This document shows positions 19,074-26,110 of a stretch of 26,110 nt of DNA, piece after piece. The notes under the pieces were generated by a model. That model saw nothing but the letters and a program-made list of their open reading frames with translations. It was not told where the DNA came from and made no database searches. Every line of letters starts with the position of its first letter. The first letter of the stretch is position 1. A program made the position numbers and the translations under genes. The stretch comes from a virus: positions 1 to 26,110 of the IMG/VR virus record IMGVR_UViG_3300009413_000068; one strand, given 5' to 3'.

Positions 19074-19091
19074 AAAAATCACACGCTTTGA

Positions 19092-19446
19092 GAGCGAGCC
19101 ACCTTGGTCGAGTACACCCAAATTAAATGAGCGAGCCAGATCTAGAGAAAGTCCAAACCCAGAGTTTGAGAGCGAGCCCAGATCAGTCGATTACACCCAG
19201 ATCAATGGAGCGAGCCTGTCGTGGTGAACGTCCAAACCCAGGTCAATGGAGCGAGCCAGACTTGTTGAGTACACCCAGATTAAACGAGCGAGCCAGCCTT
19301 GTTGAGTACACCCAAATTAAATGAGCGAGCCCGCAACGGTGACTAACACCCAAATAAGGAGAGCGAGCCCTATGTGGTGATTCAAACCCATGTACGACGA
19401 GCGAGCCAGGACTAATGATTCAAACCCCCATATTCCAAGAGCGACC
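19092..19446 (+). repeat. array of ten 37-41-bp units with bipartite ACCCA-N8-GAGCGAGCC sites
   Basis: GAGCGAGCC occurs at 19092, 19129, 19170, 19208, 19249, 19286, 19323, 19361 and 19399, with a decayed copy (GAGCGACC) at 19439. Eight of these are preceded by ACCCA with exactly 8 nt between (ACCCA at 19116, 19157, 19195, 19236, 19273, 19310, 19348, 19386). The stretch between one GAGCGAGCC and the next ACCCA varies from 15 to 19 nt. Constant internal spacing with variable linkers indicates tandem binding sites for a protein, or a repeated RNA module. No long reading frame crosses the array convincingly. It lies between the IS110-like gene and a zinc-ribbon gene whose ATG follows the last unit by 5 nt. 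Confidence 0.93.
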
Positions 19447-19451
19447 AATAA

Positions 19452-19616
19452 ATGTCTGACGACAGGCAGTGCCACCGCTGCGGCGGAACCGACGAGTTCC
19501 TCTACGAAATAGGCGGCGCGGCAATCTTTTATTGCGCTGGCTGCAAAGTTAGGACAGACTCCACGCACGAGGTTTACGGCGCGAAGGAGAAAGCGGTAGA
19601 CGAGGCTGGACGGTAA
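19452..19616 (+). CDS. zinc-ribbon small protein (54 aa)
   Basis: This 54-residue ORF has Cys pairs CHRC (C7/C10) and CAGC (C28/C31) spaced as in a compact zinc ribbon, with YEIGGAAIFYC forming the intervening beta hairpin. The C-terminal part is charged. The ATG follows the last unit of the repeat array; no strong ribosome site is present (AAGAG lies too far away). It resembles the other small Cys-pair proteins in this region. Confidence 0.65.
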   Translation: MSDDRQCHRCGGTDEFLYEIGGAAIFYCAGCKVRTDSTHEVYGAKEKAVDEAGR

Positions 19617-19666
19617 CAGCGCCCCAAAGTCCCCCTCGCCGGTACCCTTGGCGCAGGGGAATAGAC

Positions 19667-20011
19667 ATGAAACTAGCACTCACAGCTCTCTTTGTTTGTC
19701 TCGCGGTCTGCATGACAGGCGGCAGCGCGGCAGCGCAATATCTCAAGAATCCTGATCTCAAGAATCCTGGGCCGGGAAACCGAATGGTATGCGCCGAGAG
19801 GTCGGACATCCTCCGCAAACTCGCCAACAATTTCGACGAGGCCCAGATAGCCATGGGTCTAGGGGACGGTGGCAGGGTGATCGAGGTCTTCGTCTCCCCT
19901 AGCGGCAGTTTCACGGTTTTGCTCTCATTTCCAACTGGGCATAGCTGCATAGCTGCCACTGGTGAGGGCTGGAGGTCCACAGAGACACGGGCAAGCCGGG
20001 AGACTCCCTAG
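19667..20011 (+). CDS. secreted / periplasmic protein of unknown function
   Basis: The 114-residue product has an N-terminal Sec signal peptide (MKLALTALFVCLAVCMTGGSAAAQ, cleavage likely after Ala-Ala-Ala or Ala-Gln near residue 23). The mature part is about 90 residues with CAERSDILRKLANNFDEAQIAMGLGDGGRVIEVFVSPSGSFTVLL and a second Cys in GHSCIAATGEGW. The two cysteines could form a disulfide in the periplasm. Similar small exported proteins occur in phages and Alphaproteobacteria without known function. AGGGGA lies 6 nt before ATG 19667. The short KNPDLKNPG stretch arises from a duplicated CTCAAGAATCCT. Confidence 0.78.
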   Translation: MKLALTALFVCLAVCMTGGSAAAQYLKNPDLKNPGPGNRMVCAERSDILRKLANNFDEAQIAMGLGDGGRVIEVFVSPSGSFTVLLSFPTGHSCIAATGEGWRSTETRASRETP

Positions 20012-20313
20012 AGCGCCGGGACAAACCACACCGCCCTCGTGCGCTCATTTACATAAGCTATCCTCACCCTAAGCAACTTTTGCAGGGCGCTCCGTTTGCG
20101 GTAGATCCTGGACCTCTTCCTCCTGTTCGGATTCACTCGGAAGCGGTCGGTCTTAGCGTCGAATAGGTAGAGCTTCCCCACTGACGTAATGGCGATCACG
20201 TCTACCGGACCCCAGGCCGACAAGGGGCGGTAGACGTACCAGCCGCGCCGGAGGAGATTCTCGACCAGAATCAGTTCGCTGATGTCGCCAATGACGTGCC
20301 GCGAAGAACCCAT
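20008..20313 (-). CDS. PD-(D/E)XK nuclease-like protein
   Basis: The 101-residue protein has the order GDISELILVENLLRRGW (E13), GPVDVIAI (D38) and KLYLFDAKTDR (D52, K54), the E...D...(D/E)xK layout of a compact PD-(D/E)XK nuclease, similar to PDDEXK endonucleases of Holliday-junction-resolvase or homing type. A basic C-terminal segment (NRRKRSRIYRKR) would contact DNA. It is the only minus-strand gene in the right half and overlaps the secreted-protein gene by 4 nt tail-to-tail. Its upstream side faces the duplicated origin-like module. No strong ribosome site precedes ATG 20313. Possible roles are recombination, origin processing or a selfish endonuclease. Confidence 0.72.
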   Translation of the reverse strand: MGSSRHVIGDISELILVENLLRRGWYVYRPLSAWGPVDVIAITSVGKLYLFDAKTDRFRVNPNRRKRSRIYRKRSALQKLLRVRIAYVNERTRAVWFVPAL

Positions 20314-20366
20314 GGCCCATCTTTGCCTTCCAGAGGTTTGGCGTCAATGCGACCGCCCTTCAAAAA

Positions 20367-20448
20367 GTTACCCACAGAAAAATGGCGTTTGCCACAAAAT
20401 GACCTTAAAATGACCTTATTTTCGCCACAATTTCGCCACAATTATATG
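20367..20448 (+). repeat. origin-associated module, copy A (82 bp)
   Basis: This segment repeats at 20973-21043. It begins with GTTACCCACAG, a DnaA-box-like TTACCCACA (20368-20376), continues with a CAGAAAAATGGCGTTTGCCA part, then two AAAATGACCTT units, then two TTTCGCCACAA units, and ends ATTATATG. Copy A has one extra 11-bp AAAATGACCTT unit compared with copy B. It lies between the minus-strand nuclease and the gene at 20501. Confidence 0.95.
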
Positions 20449-20500
20449 CGATAATACCCATACTAAAGAATCGTGAATACAACCCATGGGAGTCAGATCA

Positions 20501-20881
20501 ATGAATGCAAAGAACATGCAGGCGGAGCACGAAATCCGATACAACGACCCCCGCCGCTCCGGCTCTTTCTCGGAAGACGTTTATGCCGAATACTGGCTTG
20601 ACCCAAAAACGCAGGATCATCGGTCCAACTGCGCGGAGTGCAATCGACCAACCCTACGATCTTACGGAAGCGTCTGGGTCGATCGCGACGCGCCGTACCT
20701 CGGCAACGCCCGCGTTGTCAGGCGGGAGCCAGACCACGCGGGGTCATACAAAGGCTTGGACCGCCTACGCCTGACGCACGGACAATGGGCATCTTTCCGG
20801 TACGGCAAATTCTGTAGGCTACGCTGTGCTGAAGCATTCGCCAATGCGGCACACGACGCTGGCTATCGCAGACGTGCGTGA
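20501..20881 (+). CDS. hypothetical Cys-pair protein (126 aa) between the two origin modules
   Basis: ATG 20501 has GGGAG (20488-20492) 8 nt upstream; the in-frame ATG at 20486 overlaps that ribosome site and is less likely. The product is polar, with NCAECNRP (C-x2-C) in the middle and FCRLRCAEAF (C-x3-C) near the C-terminus, compatible with one metal site. No family is recognised. It is flanked by direct-repeat modules A and B and followed immediately by a perfect 17-bp hairpin, so the unit module-gene-hairpin-DnaA boxes-module could work as a replication control locus. Confidence 0.68.
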   Translation: MNAKNMQAEHEIRYNDPRRSGSFSEDVYAEYWLDPKTQDHRSNCAECNRPTLRSYGSVWVDRDAPYLGNARVVRREPDHAGSYKGLDRLRLTHGQWASFRYGKFCRLRCAEAFANAAHDAGYRRRA

Positions 20882-20883
20882 GC

Positions 20884-20924
20884 GCATGGTGCGCGGAGTC
20901 TAGCCTTGACTCCGCGCACCATGC
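20884..20924. other. perfect 17-bp inverted repeat (hairpin)
   Basis: GCATGGTGCGCGGAGTC (20884-20900) pairs perfectly with its complement at 20908-20924 around the loop TAGCCTT. It starts 2 nt after a stop codon, but no T-tract follows, so it is a poor intrinsic terminator. It sits 10 nt before the DnaA-box cluster and may act as a structural element of the origin. Confidence 0.9.
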
Positions 20925-20934
20925 TCCACGGATC

Positions 20935-21043
20935 TGTGGATAACTTGTGGATAACTTGTGGATAACTTTAGAGTTATCCACAGAAAAATGGCGTTTGCCA
21001 CAAAATGACCTTATTTTCGCCACAATTTCGCCACAATTATATG
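20935..21043. other. candidate DNA replication origin (DnaA-box cluster)
   Basis: Three perfect DnaA boxes in reverse orientation (TGTGGATAA at 20935, 20946 and 20957) are spaced exactly 11 bp apart. A fourth, TTATCCACA (20974-20982), is in the opposite orientation. Boxes 3 and 4 form an 11-bp inverted repeat with a 4-nt centre. An AT-rich stretch with 11-bp TTTCGCCACAA repeats follows and could be the unwinding element. Phased boxes beside an AT-rich repeat region is the architecture of DnaA-dependent origins. No dnaA is present, so host DnaA would be used. Confidence 0.72.
20973..21043 (+). repeat. origin-associated module, copy B (71 bp)
   Basis: Direct repeat of 20367-20448, nearly identical but lacking one 11-bp AAAATGACCTT unit and with a perfect DnaA box (TTATCCACA) where copy A has TTACCCACA. 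Both copies end in CGCCACAATTATATG. Confidence 0.95.
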
Positions 21044-21053
21044 GGAAAATTCT

Positions 21054-21059
21054 TATAAT
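21054..21059 (+). promoter_or_regulatory. consensus -10 box downstream of origin module B
   Basis: TATAAT follows ATATGGGAAAATTCT at the edge of module B. No consensus -35 lies 17 bp upstream (CCACAA), so activation or an extended element would be needed. A transcript from here would run through about 170 nt of GC-rich leader (to 21237) in which I see no gene apart from a short alternative frame at 21204, and then into the gene at 21238. Confidence 0.4.
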
Positions 21060-21237
21060 GAAAGAGGCCGCCGAGCAGGGCGAAGTGGACTAGAGGCCAC
21101 CTCTCTAACCCCCGCCGGGAACCGCGCCACCGTTCTTTGACATCGTGAACAGTTGGTTGTTTGGATGATCCGTGGGCCTCCAACCTGTTATGGGAGTCAA
21201 CTCATGGCAAAACCTAACCGGAAGAGGGAGAACTACC

Positions 21238-21540
21238 ATGACTTTAGCAGTACGTATTCCAAAACGATTTTACGACGATTGCGAAGAGTGCGAAACGGAG
21301 ACACCGACGATTGTCAAAACAACGTCGCGGCACTACTGGCTTGACCTCGAAACCGAGCGAGACGCTTGGAGTGACATCCGTAGCCGCGCAAAATCCTACG
21401 CAGACAACACGGGCTTCGTGCCAGAGTCTGCGCCCATTTGTGCCGCTGCTCGGGCCTTCTTGAAGTCGTGCAGCGCCGGTGGAGTCATCGAAAACATCGA
21501 GGAGGGCAGAATACAGCCCGTCCGTGACGGGGGAGAGTGA
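21238..21540 (+). CDS. hypothetical phage protein (100 aa)
   Basis: GGGAG (21226-21230) lies 7 nt before ATG 21238. The product starts MTLAVRIPKRFYDDCEEC with a C-x2-C pair, then KTTSRHYWLDL and two more cysteines near the C-terminus (PICAAARAFLKSC), so a zinc-binding fold is possible. It is acidic overall. I have seen similar short proteins in phage accessory regions but know no function. The stop precedes the next ATG by 1 nt. A second SD-ATG pair at 21192/21204 opens an overlapping 46-codon frame. Confidence 0.65.
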   Translation: MTLAVRIPKRFYDDCEECETETPTIVKTTSRHYWLDLETERDAWSDIRSRAKSYADNTGFVPESAPICAAARAFLKSCSAGGVIENIEEGRIQPVRDGGE

Positions 21541-21541
21541 C

Positions 21542-21733
21542 ATGACCACCTACTATGATTTCCGGTGGCGCACGAACTGGGAGCTACAAATGATGGTCGA
21601 TGCTTTTGAGCATTCCGGCACCGACACACCGACCGAAGAGCAGAAACTAAAATCAGCCAAGCAAGAATTGGCTAACCGACGACACAAGCAAGAATTGGCT
21701 AACCGACGACACATCTTTCGACAACGAGACTAG
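21542..21733 (+). CDS. hypothetical protein (63 aa) with duplicated KQELANRRH
   Basis: ATG 21542 is preceded by GGGAG at 6 nt and starts 1 nt after the upstream stop. The product is helical and polar, beginning MTTYYDFRWRTNWELQMMVDAF and ending in a tandemly duplicated nine-residue segment KQELANRRH. No family is recognised; the RWRTNWEL segment resembles small phage proteins of unknown role. It is the last gene before a 392-nt non-coding stretch. Confidence 0.6.
   Translation: MTTYYDFRWRTNWELQMMVDAFEHSGTDTPTEEQKLKSAKQELANRRHKQELANRRHIFRQRD
21659..21712 (+). repeat. perfect 2 x 27-bp in-frame tandem duplication
   Basis: Positions 21659-21685 and 21686-21712 are identical and duplicate nine codons near the 3' end of the 63-residue ORF. 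Perfect identity suggests a recent slippage or duplication event. Confidence 0.97.
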
Positions 21734-22125
21734 ACAACAACCACGGCCCACGGTTCTTCCAAGCAGCCAGACGAACCGCCGTCCCGGCGTCCCACTATAG
21801 AACGGATTCTGTAAATTCAAAAAAAAAAAAAATCTACAATTCATGGTGGGATTGGTGGGACAGGCGGGACGGTTCCAATAACCCACATCCTATATAGGAT
21901 TTTTAGGCTTTTCTTGTCCCGCAGGCGATCCCCCCATATGTTGCTCACGGGACGCTATACCGGTTAGGATTAGTTCGTTTACGGCCCGGCCCGTGGTATT
22001 TTAACTTAGACTAACTGATATAGGGCTTTTCCGCGTCAGTTTACAGGTGTTTCTTAAAGCGAGCCGGTGGGACAGTGGCGGGACAGCGTTGATATCAAAG
22101 GAAGAAGAGCCTTTTGGAGGGCATT
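21734..22125. other. 392-bp non-coding region upstream of terS with repeated GGYGGGAY elements
   Basis: No convincing gene is present. Visible elements are three tandem 9-bp units TGGTGGGAT, TGGTGGGAC, AGGCGGGAC (21844-21870), two further copies CGGTGGGAC (22065-22073) and TGGCGGGAC (22076-22084), a 14-A tract (21819-21832), the palindrome ATCCTATATAGGAT (21887-21900) and several reverse GTCCC copies. Phage packaging initiation and terminase-regulatory sites often lie next to terS, so this is a candidate pac/cos or control region. Confidence 0.5.
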
Positions 22126-22737
22126 TTGGCAAAATCAAAGCTTCCGGTAAGGATTCCCCGGAAAAACTCCGATATTCGTGGGCCGACCAGGAAGCTGACG
22201 CGGCGTCAGGAAAAGTTTGTTAAAGAACTCGTAAGCAACGATGGGCTTATTACGCTGAGGGAGGCCGCGATTCGAGCGGGCTACCCTGCCGCATCGGCCC
22301 ACACTCGCGCCTTTGAACTTACCAGTCCCCGCCATTGCCCGCATGTGGTTGCGGAAATTACGCGCTACCGGGACGAACTCGATGAGCAGTACAAGGTTGG
22401 CTACAAGCGTCATGTCCGTGACTTGCAAAAGATTCGTGATCTGGCGCTCGATAACGGCGCATTCTCGGCGGCGGTACAGGCCGAGTACAGGCGGGGCCAA
22501 GCTCAGGGCGATATATATGTGAGCAAATCTGAAATTAGGACAGGGTCCATTGACCAAATGAGTAGAGAGCAGGTGGAAATTGAGCTCGCCCGGATTCGAG
22601 AAGGCTTTGAAAAAACTATCGACGTCACGCCCACAGAAGTCGAAGAACAAGATTCCGAGGGTGGCGCTAAAGAATCGGGAAGCGGGACTGTGGCGTCTGA
22701 TAAGCGACGGCCTAAAGACGACGGGCCGGAAAATTGA
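22126..22737 (+). CDS. terS: terminase small subunit
   Basis: The 203-residue product has the terminase-small-subunit pattern: LTRRQEKFVKELVSNDGLITLREAAIRAGYP (helix-turn-helix DNA-binding part, about 24-54), then SAHTRAFELTSPRHCPHVVAEI, and the oligomerisation helices around YKRHVRDLQKIRDLALDNGAFSAAVQAEYRRGQAQGDIY. A charged, disordered tail ends it. It recognises the packaging site and loads the large terminase. I chose TTG 22126, giving MAKSKLPVR, because GGAGG (22116-22120) lies 5 nt upstream; no ATG is available. The VRR-NUC-like nuclease gene overlaps its 3' end, while no large terminase follows within the window. Confidence 0.85.
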   Translation: MAKSKLPVRIPRKNSDIRGPTRKLTRRQEKFVKELVSNDGLITLREAAIRAGYPAASAHTRAFELTSPRHCPHVVAEITRYRDELDEQYKVGYKRHVRDLQKIRDLALDNGAFSAAVQAEYRRGQAQGDIYVSKSEIRTGSIDQMSREQVEIELARIREGFEKTIDVTPTEVEEQDSEGGAKESGSGTVASDKRRPKDDGPEN

Positions 22738-23071
22738 AACGACCAGACTCGAAAGCTGGGCAATCCCTGGAGTCCCCGACGTCTTACTGTGTGCAGAAAA
22801 CGGTGCGTTTAGTTTCCTCGAACTTAAAGTCACAAAGGGCCGAATTGGTAAGGTCGATCTCTCACCCCATCAGGTTGCGTGGCTTAGTCGCCATTCCCGC
22901 GCAAATTGTTTTATTGTTGTGCGCGATTCTTCTCTGGACATTAGTGTTTTTGCTGGCTCCACTGCTGTTGATTTGCGTATGGACGGTCTTGCAGCCGTAT
23001 CGCCTCTGGCTGTTTTGCAGGAACCGTACGACTGGGAAGCGTTTTTTCAGTTGACGAGTCCCACGGGGTAG
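22661..23071 (+). CDS. VRR-NUC-like endonuclease
   Basis: The product (136 residues from GTG 22661) has the PD-(D/E)XK/VRR-NUC layout: WRLISDGLKTTG, RLESWAIPGVPDV (E31, P39-D40), SFLELKV (E54, K56) and LSPHQVAWLSRH (Q71). Such phage nucleases cut branched DNA and often sit beside terminase genes. The start is uncertain: the frame stays open into terS, GTG 22661 has GAGG immediately adjacent, and a TTG at 22580 would extend it without family support. The 77-nt overlap with terS implies coupled translation. It may clear branched replication intermediates before packaging. Confidence 0.78.
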   Translation: MALKNREAGLWRLISDGLKTTGRKIETTRLESWAIPGVPDVLLCAENGAFSFLELKVTKGRIGKVDLSPHQVAWLSRHSRANCFIVVRDSSLDISVFAGSTAVDLRMDGLAAVSPLAVLQEPYDWEAFFQLTSPTG

Positions 23072-25777: not shown

Positions 25778-25829
25778 CGCCAGCGTTTGTCATAGTGAAT
25801 CACTCAGGGGGCCGCCTTCCCCGTGGCGC

Positions 25830-25970
25830 ATGAAACTCACAGCGGGGCCCGTGGCGCTTGGCCCATGCGCCATGACGCCCGCCAGCGCCTGTAGTTTTGT
25901 CGGGCACCGCAACCCATGTCAGGTGCTCTTCGTGCGTCTGGAAGCATCCTGGGCGGTCGATTTTGGGTGA
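25830..25970 (+). CDS. doubtful 46-residue ORF before the terminal repeats
   Basis: ATG 25830 to the TGA that is also the first three bases of the terminal 10-bp repeat. The product contains three Cys but no recognisable motif, and no ribosome site is visible. A 9-bp inverted repeat, TGGCGCATG (25824-25832) with CATGCGCCA (25864-25872), overlaps its start. Otherwise 25778-25967 holds nothing I can identify. Confidence 0.15.
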   Translation: MKLTAGPVALGPCAMTPASACSFVGHRNPCQVLFVRLEASWAVDFG

Positions 25971-26057
25971 TTGAGCCTGATTGAGCCTGATTGAGCCTGA
26001 TTGAGCCTGATTGAGCCTGATTGAGCCTGATTGAGCCTGATTGAGCCTGATTGAGCC
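25968..26057. repeat. 9 perfect tandem copies of a 10-bp unit (TGATTGAGCC)
   Basis: Ninety bases consist of nine identical TGATTGAGCC units, one helical turn each, directly abutting a second array. There is no reading frame. Exact identity indicates recent expansion or active maintenance. Confidence 0.97.
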
Positions 26058-26110
26058 TTCGATGTCGCTCGCCTTCGATGTCGCTCGCCTTCGATGTCGC
26101 TCGCCTTCGA
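26058..26110. repeat. tandem 16-bp repeats (TTCGATGTCGCTCGCC) running off the window
   Basis: Three perfect copies (26058, 26074, 26090) and the first five bases of a fourth reach the window end, so total length is unknown. The array follows the 10-bp array with no gap. Confidence 0.96.

Follow-up and report, generated by a model that had tools for sequence, protein, structure and literature searches.

A cluster of DnaA boxes in a phage genome fragment probably controls the promoter of an rRNA-mimicking accessory-gene cassette

Introduction

Four perfect DnaA boxes lie within 48 bp of a viral genome, and this arrangement raises the question of whether the host replication initiator is recruited there for replication of the phage, as a sequence-only reading had proposed, or for another purpose. 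The DNA analyzed here (the window) is a 26,110-base IMG/VR virus record and represents a fragment. Its proteins include a SNF2-type helicase, Pam3 gp33/gp34-like proteins, an AEP primase-like protein, a UvrD-type helicase, a family A DNA polymerase and an MT-A70 methyltransferase, next to which are small ORFs and, 3' of these, a terS-like gene starting at 22114. Positions 19600 to 22800 gave no DNA match to named phages; the named-phage relatives of the window polymerase are DSL-LC04, HTVC023P and HTVC027P (46-54%), and a search with this polymerase retrieved 35 related loci. Our data indicate that the boxes probably control a phage promoter, itself driving an accessory-gene cassette that mimics rRNA, rather than forming a replication origin.

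Results

The DnaA boxes adjoin a duplicated promoter module

Motif positions bore out the four perfect boxes TTATCCACA (20935-20982), the helical phasing of the first three (spacing of 11 and 11 bp), and the dyad created by inversion of the fourth, for which we found perfect dyads of 11 and 13 nt. The AT-rich 11-bp repeats said to adjoin the boxes are likewise present (TTTCGCCACAA, with TTCGCCACA at 21016 and 21027); they have the form TTNGCCACA, i.e., that of degenerate boxes, and share the helical phase of the perfect boxes. The four-box cluster is far beyond chance: the whole window holds 5 strict boxes versus 0.09 per simulated window (first-order Markov), and the largest cluster in 300 such runs was 1. 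The earlier reading lacked this degenerate-box form of the repeats and two further features: the regulatory module is duplicated (20366-20467 and 20972-21062, 87-89% over two repeat families, copies ~600 bp apart), and directly 3' of the boxes come a promoter, then boxA, then an inverted repeat. The upstream part of the locus is as follows:

20366 to 20467, plus strand: upstream module copy, a repeat pair with TTACCCACA at 20368, TTTGCCACA at 20388 and TTCGCCACA at 20421 and 20432; promoter-like TATGCGATAAT, full rrn-like leader absent
20486 to 20881, plus strand: 131-aa ORF 3' of this first module copy (ORF list)
20884 to 20924, no strand: 20-bp near-perfect inverted repeat between the 131-aa ORF and the boxes (repeat search)
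20935 to 20965, minus strand: three perfect DnaA boxes 11 bp apart, at 20935, 20946 and 20957 (motif search, simulation)
20974 to 20982, plus strand: fourth perfect DnaA box, inverted; its end is 57 b before TATGGGA, on a 10.5-bp ladder
20994 to 21035, plus strand: three degenerate boxes, TTTGCCACA and two copies of TTCGCCACA, 37, 15 and 4 b from TATGGGA
21040 to 21059, plus strand: promoter core, with spacer element TATGGGA (21040-21046), conserved in relatives, and -10 TATAAT (21054-21059)

In the upstream copy, the corresponding ladder distances to the promoter are 68 (TTACCCACA), 48, 15 and 4. The window promoter has a poor -35, and a sigma-70 scan lists no promoter at 21040. A family search with the 131-aa ORF gave only a sub-threshold Pfam match, and two relatives (L027 and L037) carry a different hairpin where the window has its inverted repeat. 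Rfam gave one chance miRNA match, at 20956.

The promoter opens a cassette with an rRNA-like leader and trailer

Downstream of the promoter, the following elements precede terS:

21070 to 21119, plus strand: GC-rich hairpin segment of the leader (GGGCGAAGTGGA..GCCACC..CTAACCCCCG), conserved in several relatives
21133 to 21147, plus strand: boxA-like TTCTTTGACATCGTG, whose motif TTTGACATYGTGAA also occurs at alphaproteobacteria-like rRNA loci
21154 to 21178, plus strand: leader arm of a leader-trailer helix, with boxC-like CCGTGGGCC at 21170-21178
21204 to 21540, plus strand: cargo region of overlapping small ORFs that follow GGGAGTCAACTC, one of 46 aa starting at 21204 and one of ~100 aa starting at 21238, which shares the frame of the listed ORF 21172-21540
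21745 to 21769, plus strand: trailer arm pairing with 21154-21178 (inverted repeat, covariation)
21770 to 22113, no strand: noncoding stretch leading up to terS, conserved also in box-less relatives and containing an A-tract and GTCCCAC / GTGGGACAG repeats

The cargo ORFs matched neither a Pfam nor a PHROG family. The idea that the leader hairpin is a riboswitch received no support from Rfam; at the gathering threshold, Rfam gave no match in the five loci L027, L037, L042, L044 and L041.

We gathered cassettes by two pattern scans, which yielded 31 and 23 stretches (overlapping sets with some chance matches), and found a recurring order: an operator region, a promoter whose spacer contains TATGGGA, a leader that in many cases has a GC hairpin, boxA (as YTNTTTGACATYGTGAA or a variant), a 5' arm with CCGTGGGCC, GGAGTCAACC-ATG with its small ORF, and finally a 3' arm with GGCCCACGG. 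Where cassette promoters have good -35s, these are usually TTGANN with a 17-bp spacer. One locus (L063) carries two consecutive cassettes, the second without a promoter. Two bacterial matches to the CGCCACAATTTCGCCACAATT pattern appear unrelated.

The helix arms were found through their conserved ends, independently of pairing. Leader and trailer arms pair in all 12 cassettes with a located trailer (none was located in 4 of 16), and for two of these 12, the window and L057, the duplex energy was not better than the best of 300 shuffled left arms. Across 11 arm pairs, 93.5% of cells are paired and two-sided changes occur in 13 of 25 pairs, amounting to 26 such cells; none of 500 shuffles reached the observed value, and slid controls gave 3-5 two-sided cells versus 26. 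The boxC-like CCGTGGGC sits in the 5' arm of this covarying helix, as expected of an rrn-type leader, where we take CCGTGGGCC to be boxC-like. In the cassettes, the boxA-boxC distance is 22-23 b after TTTGACATYGTG. For E. coli rrn operons, one study describes boxA, boxC and a leader-trailer helix containing boxC, and gives a boxA-boxC distance of 18-19 nt in Enterobacteriaceae (PMC10250234).

The cassette boxA is identical to sequences at rrn loci. More specifically, of 58 genomes from a single class, from which the phage's own host may differ, six contain TTTGACATYGTGAA; it lies at rRNA loci in at least four of those six, with a fifth probable. It is upstream of 23S by Rfam annotation in L088, L091 and L096 (the genome of L083) and 5' of a 16S start motif in L089; L092 to L095, which come from a single genome, resemble rrn leaders truncated where the contigs end, and the copy in L090 is away from rRNA. 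We presume from the spacer pattern that the genomes of these loci are alphaproteobacteria-like, and the phage's host may be alphaproteobacterial as well. A phylum-wide search found the motif in 9 of 160 genomes, where among the eight loci listed L083 alone could be placed at rRNA. It was absent from the four whole phage records searched (CRP-901, HTVC023P, HTVC027P and DSL-LC04) and from the XM05 stretch examined.

Boxes of the surveyed loci are confined to the promoter and lie in register with it

In 28 cassette loci, 33 of 34 strict boxes fall within 320 b upstream of boxA (8,272 b of 239,940 b); because these loci were picked by their leader, duplicates included, the count describes where boxes are located in them and not how frequent boxes are. 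A second survey, anchored on terS and chosen independently of the leader, found strict boxes at most 4 kb upstream of terS in 22 of 82 rows, the box-less fraction of which is not a clean estimate because many rows have short upstream DNA and some phages are repeated. TATGGGA (TATGAGA in L165) follows a box by 12-77 b in 21 of the 22 rows with boxes, and the exception, L124, resembles a cassette-deletion remnant.

Same-strand boxes located 13-89 b from TATGGGA fall on a single 10.5-bp ladder (R 0.93), although pooled all-box p-values are inflated because the boxes of one promoter are mutually in phase, so the last-box tests carry the weight. The last plus-strand box of eight promoters is 57, 46, 55, 66, 77, 15, 36 and 36 b from TATGGGA, which at 10.5 bp gives R 0.905 (p 5e-5 versus random distances, n=8); upon thinning for relatedness, p was 0.004 in two sets of n=6 and 0.015 at n=5. 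The common ancestry of the promoters makes these p-values optimistic. Loci beyond the first set (L189, L203, L130, L108, L145 and L165) showed the same phase (R 0.91, n=12), and with the last box only, p was 0.003 (n=6), or 0.047 (n=4) after removal of repeated 36s. A free search for TTATCCACA with TATGGGAWAA 5-66 b behind it, extended to inverted boxes at 2-32 b, returned 121 distinct sites. The 15 sites with boxA/boxC downstream were phased (R 0.886, n=23 plus-strand boxes), and the 106 sites without them, which serve as a control of chance pairs from other viruses, had no phase (R 0.04, n=81 plus-strand boxes). One of the 15, L253, resembles coding sequence, and leaving it out together with L220, whose layout is that of L203, changed little (R 0.90, n=19).

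A poor -35 tends to accompany multiple boxes, which points to activation

Perfect boxes in helical register with a promoter are what a DnaA-activated promoter would display. A -35 is lacking in 8 of 13 promoters with at least two boxes versus 2 of 15 with fewer (Fisher p 0.016; p 0.063 when thinned), and box number correlates negatively with the -35 (rho -0.52, p 0.005; thinned Spearman p 0.012). That multi-box promoters more often do without a -35 argues for activation. On this evidence, host DnaA would occupy the perfect boxes and might also occupy the degenerate TTNGCCACA sites, which share one helix face relative to the promoter; bound there, it would help RNA polymerase to initiate despite the poor -35. 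The transcript, a putative copy of an rRNA precursor, may then recruit the host Nus/NusB-S10 antitermination machinery through boxA; its ends, including the boxC-like stretch, would pair into the leader-trailer helix, and RNase III may cut this helix, releasing a short mRNA for the accessory protein.

The first alternative is that DnaA acts as an operator-bound repressor that silences or times the promoter, or that the boxes titrate host DnaA. Several minus-strand boxes 12-14 b before TATGGGA do abut good -35s, and DnaA can repress (PMC8203912). The same article presents DnaA as an activator at several promoters, ori-lambda included. We regard repression or titration as unlikely, given that multi-box promoters tend to have poor -35s, that far-upstream boxes stay in phase, and that each promoter has only 1-4 strict boxes.

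Operators and cargo are exchanged, and relatives can lack both boxes and cassette

In the relative L027, whose polymerase is 75% identical, three boxes occupy almost the position they have in the window: they are 4466 b beyond where the polymerase match ends, the window's distance being 4453 b beyond the end of the gene. L037 has two boxes, L026 ends inside its first box region, and L041, which is the same phage as the window, ends inside the box cluster. L031 and L034 are 83-85% identical to L027 in DNA over long stretches, yet boxes are absent from both, ~1,056 b of L027 (12350-13406) being replaced by ~73 b. L022 has neither boxes nor cassette, and in L033 the cassette is present but an unrelated palindrome stands where the boxes would be. 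Strict boxes are likewise missing at the promoters of L033, L054, L072, L049, L063, L112, L128, L152 and L107; the boxes are thus dispensable, which counts against the activation reading. Boxes and promoter occur without an rrn-like leader in L129 and L165, although in the window and most relatives such a leader follows the promoter.

Cargo ORFs differ between cassettes, and the same types recur under different operators. The MENH/MDNHTLKNG cargo is found under boxes (L037), a palindrome plus boxes (L057) and a palindrome alone (L049); the DKNRYCGPSVIS cargo is found under boxes (L051, L075, L077 and L078), a palindrome (L054) and neither (L047). Named phages with cargo relatives are Roseobacter phage CRP-901 and Erythrobacter phage XM05. 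One cargo family (L054:1512-2261 and relatives), related to CRP-901 and XM05 proteins, carries YCGPSVIS and HWQLV motifs; it has no Pfam match in L054 and its relatives, and we take its pattern to resemble the cysteine-protease type.

Two further promoter arrangements were noted. At ~1.6 kb upstream of terS, the TATGAGA promoter of L165 is preceded by a pair of phased boxes and by 11-bp TTTGTTAACC repeats; the structured leader that follows is a different one and lacks boxA. The window's TTTCGCCACAA repeat promoter module also occurs on a different phage contig of 49.8 kb (L044:235-290), where it has no DnaA boxes and precedes a different small ORF.

The boxes are improbable as a replication origin

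According to the origin or phage-plasmid reading, DnaA is loaded at the boxes, melting follows in the adjacent AT-rich 11-mers, and replication passes to the phage's own helicase, primase and polymerase. A box cluster does adjoin AT-rich phased repeats (AT fraction 0.65-0.66), the repeats vary between phages in an iteron-like manner, and strand composition shifts in the general neighborhood. P1 oriR and other DnaA/iteron origins have DnaA boxes beside phased repeats, and the window shares this adjacency; it differs in that no Rep-like gene is recognized downstream, the cassette is dispensable, and the boxes are locked to a promoter. The boxes are not conserved in close relatives: syntenic L033 has the cassette without them, and L031, L034 and L022 lack the cassette entirely.

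Nor does strand skew switch at the boxes. In the window plus flanks from L041, L099 and L100 (~54.6 kb, with genes nearly all on one strand), the composition of fourfold sites shifts at 24.0-24.3 kb and again around 4-8 kb, which are the edges of the early gene block. The change at 24.0-24.3 kb, ~3 kb from the boxes, lies at the early/late gene boundary near terS, and fourfold sites are few at 21-23.5 kb. L022 shows the same change of sign at its terS, on few sites; the change is less clear in L027, which has boxes, and L031 is mixed. Since the changes sit elsewhere and occur in box-less L022, skew lends an origin at the boxes no support, but neither does it disprove one. We consider a DnaA-dependent origin or plasmid-like replicon quite improbable: recruitment of host DnaA remains likely, as the natural reading of perfect boxes, whereas recruitment for origin initiation is disfavored.

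Marginally less probable still is a combination of the two, in which DnaA-stimulated transcription here also activates a nearby origin in the noncoding stretch 21770-22113: ori-lambda offers a precedent (PMC8203912), and noncoding repeats before terS are conserved in the relatives examined, but the stretch could equally be a pac site and survives in relatives without the cassette (L022 and L031 among them, as well as in L033), and is therefore independent of the promoter. That stretch is a better candidate than the boxes for a pac site or origin.

Discussion

The proposed control of the rRNA-mimicking cassette by the box-bearing promoter has partial counterparts in known systems. Phage morons combine an autonomous promoter with an exchangeable accessory gene at a fixed site and are absent in some relatives. 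The cassette resembles them in autonomous promoter, exchangeable gene, fixed site and patchy presence, and adds an rRNA-type leader/trailer and DnaA boxes. Our literature search did not find a paper on phage DnaA-box promoters with rrn-like leaders. With the bacterial rrn leader (PMC10250234), the cassette shares boxA, a boxC-like 5' arm and a covarying leader-trailer helix; unlike the rrn operon, it has the gene of a small protein where 16S rRNA would be, and its boxA-boxC spacing appears different. At lambda pR/ori-lambda, host DnaA has likewise been proposed to activate a phage promoter via RNA polymerase (PMC8203912). Here, in contrast, perfect boxes stand in phased upstream arrays, and the transcript is an rRNA-like accessory-gene RNA rather than that of lambda's replication genes.

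More tentatively, and with appreciably less confidence than in the promoter assignment itself, we suggest that a marine phage family may possess an exchangeable accessory-gene system copying the whole expression logic of host rRNA operons, i.e., a DnaA-phased activated promoter that senses the replication state of the host, boxA/boxC antitermination and RNase III release from the stalk, with operators and cargo swapped independently. If so, phages would have a class of promoter that the host replication initiator tunes, in which natural variation in box distance reveals workable spacings, and nature would offer an example of a protein gene enclosed in a mimic of an rRNA precursor; whether phages borrow rRNA antitermination and processing for high, Rho-resistant expression of accessory genes would become testable.

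Other repeats were observed in the window. Its right end (25800-26110) is a tandem repeat, read as SGSIRLNQAQ in a minus-strand ORF, that gives several overlapping matches to L041. Positions 19079-19422 hold at least 8 degenerate direct repeats of 37-41 nt each (ACCCARAT..GAGCGAGCC..TTGAGTAC), and at a roughly equivalent place L027, L026 and L037 carry G-rich degenerate repeats 5' of a small zinc-finger-like ORF.
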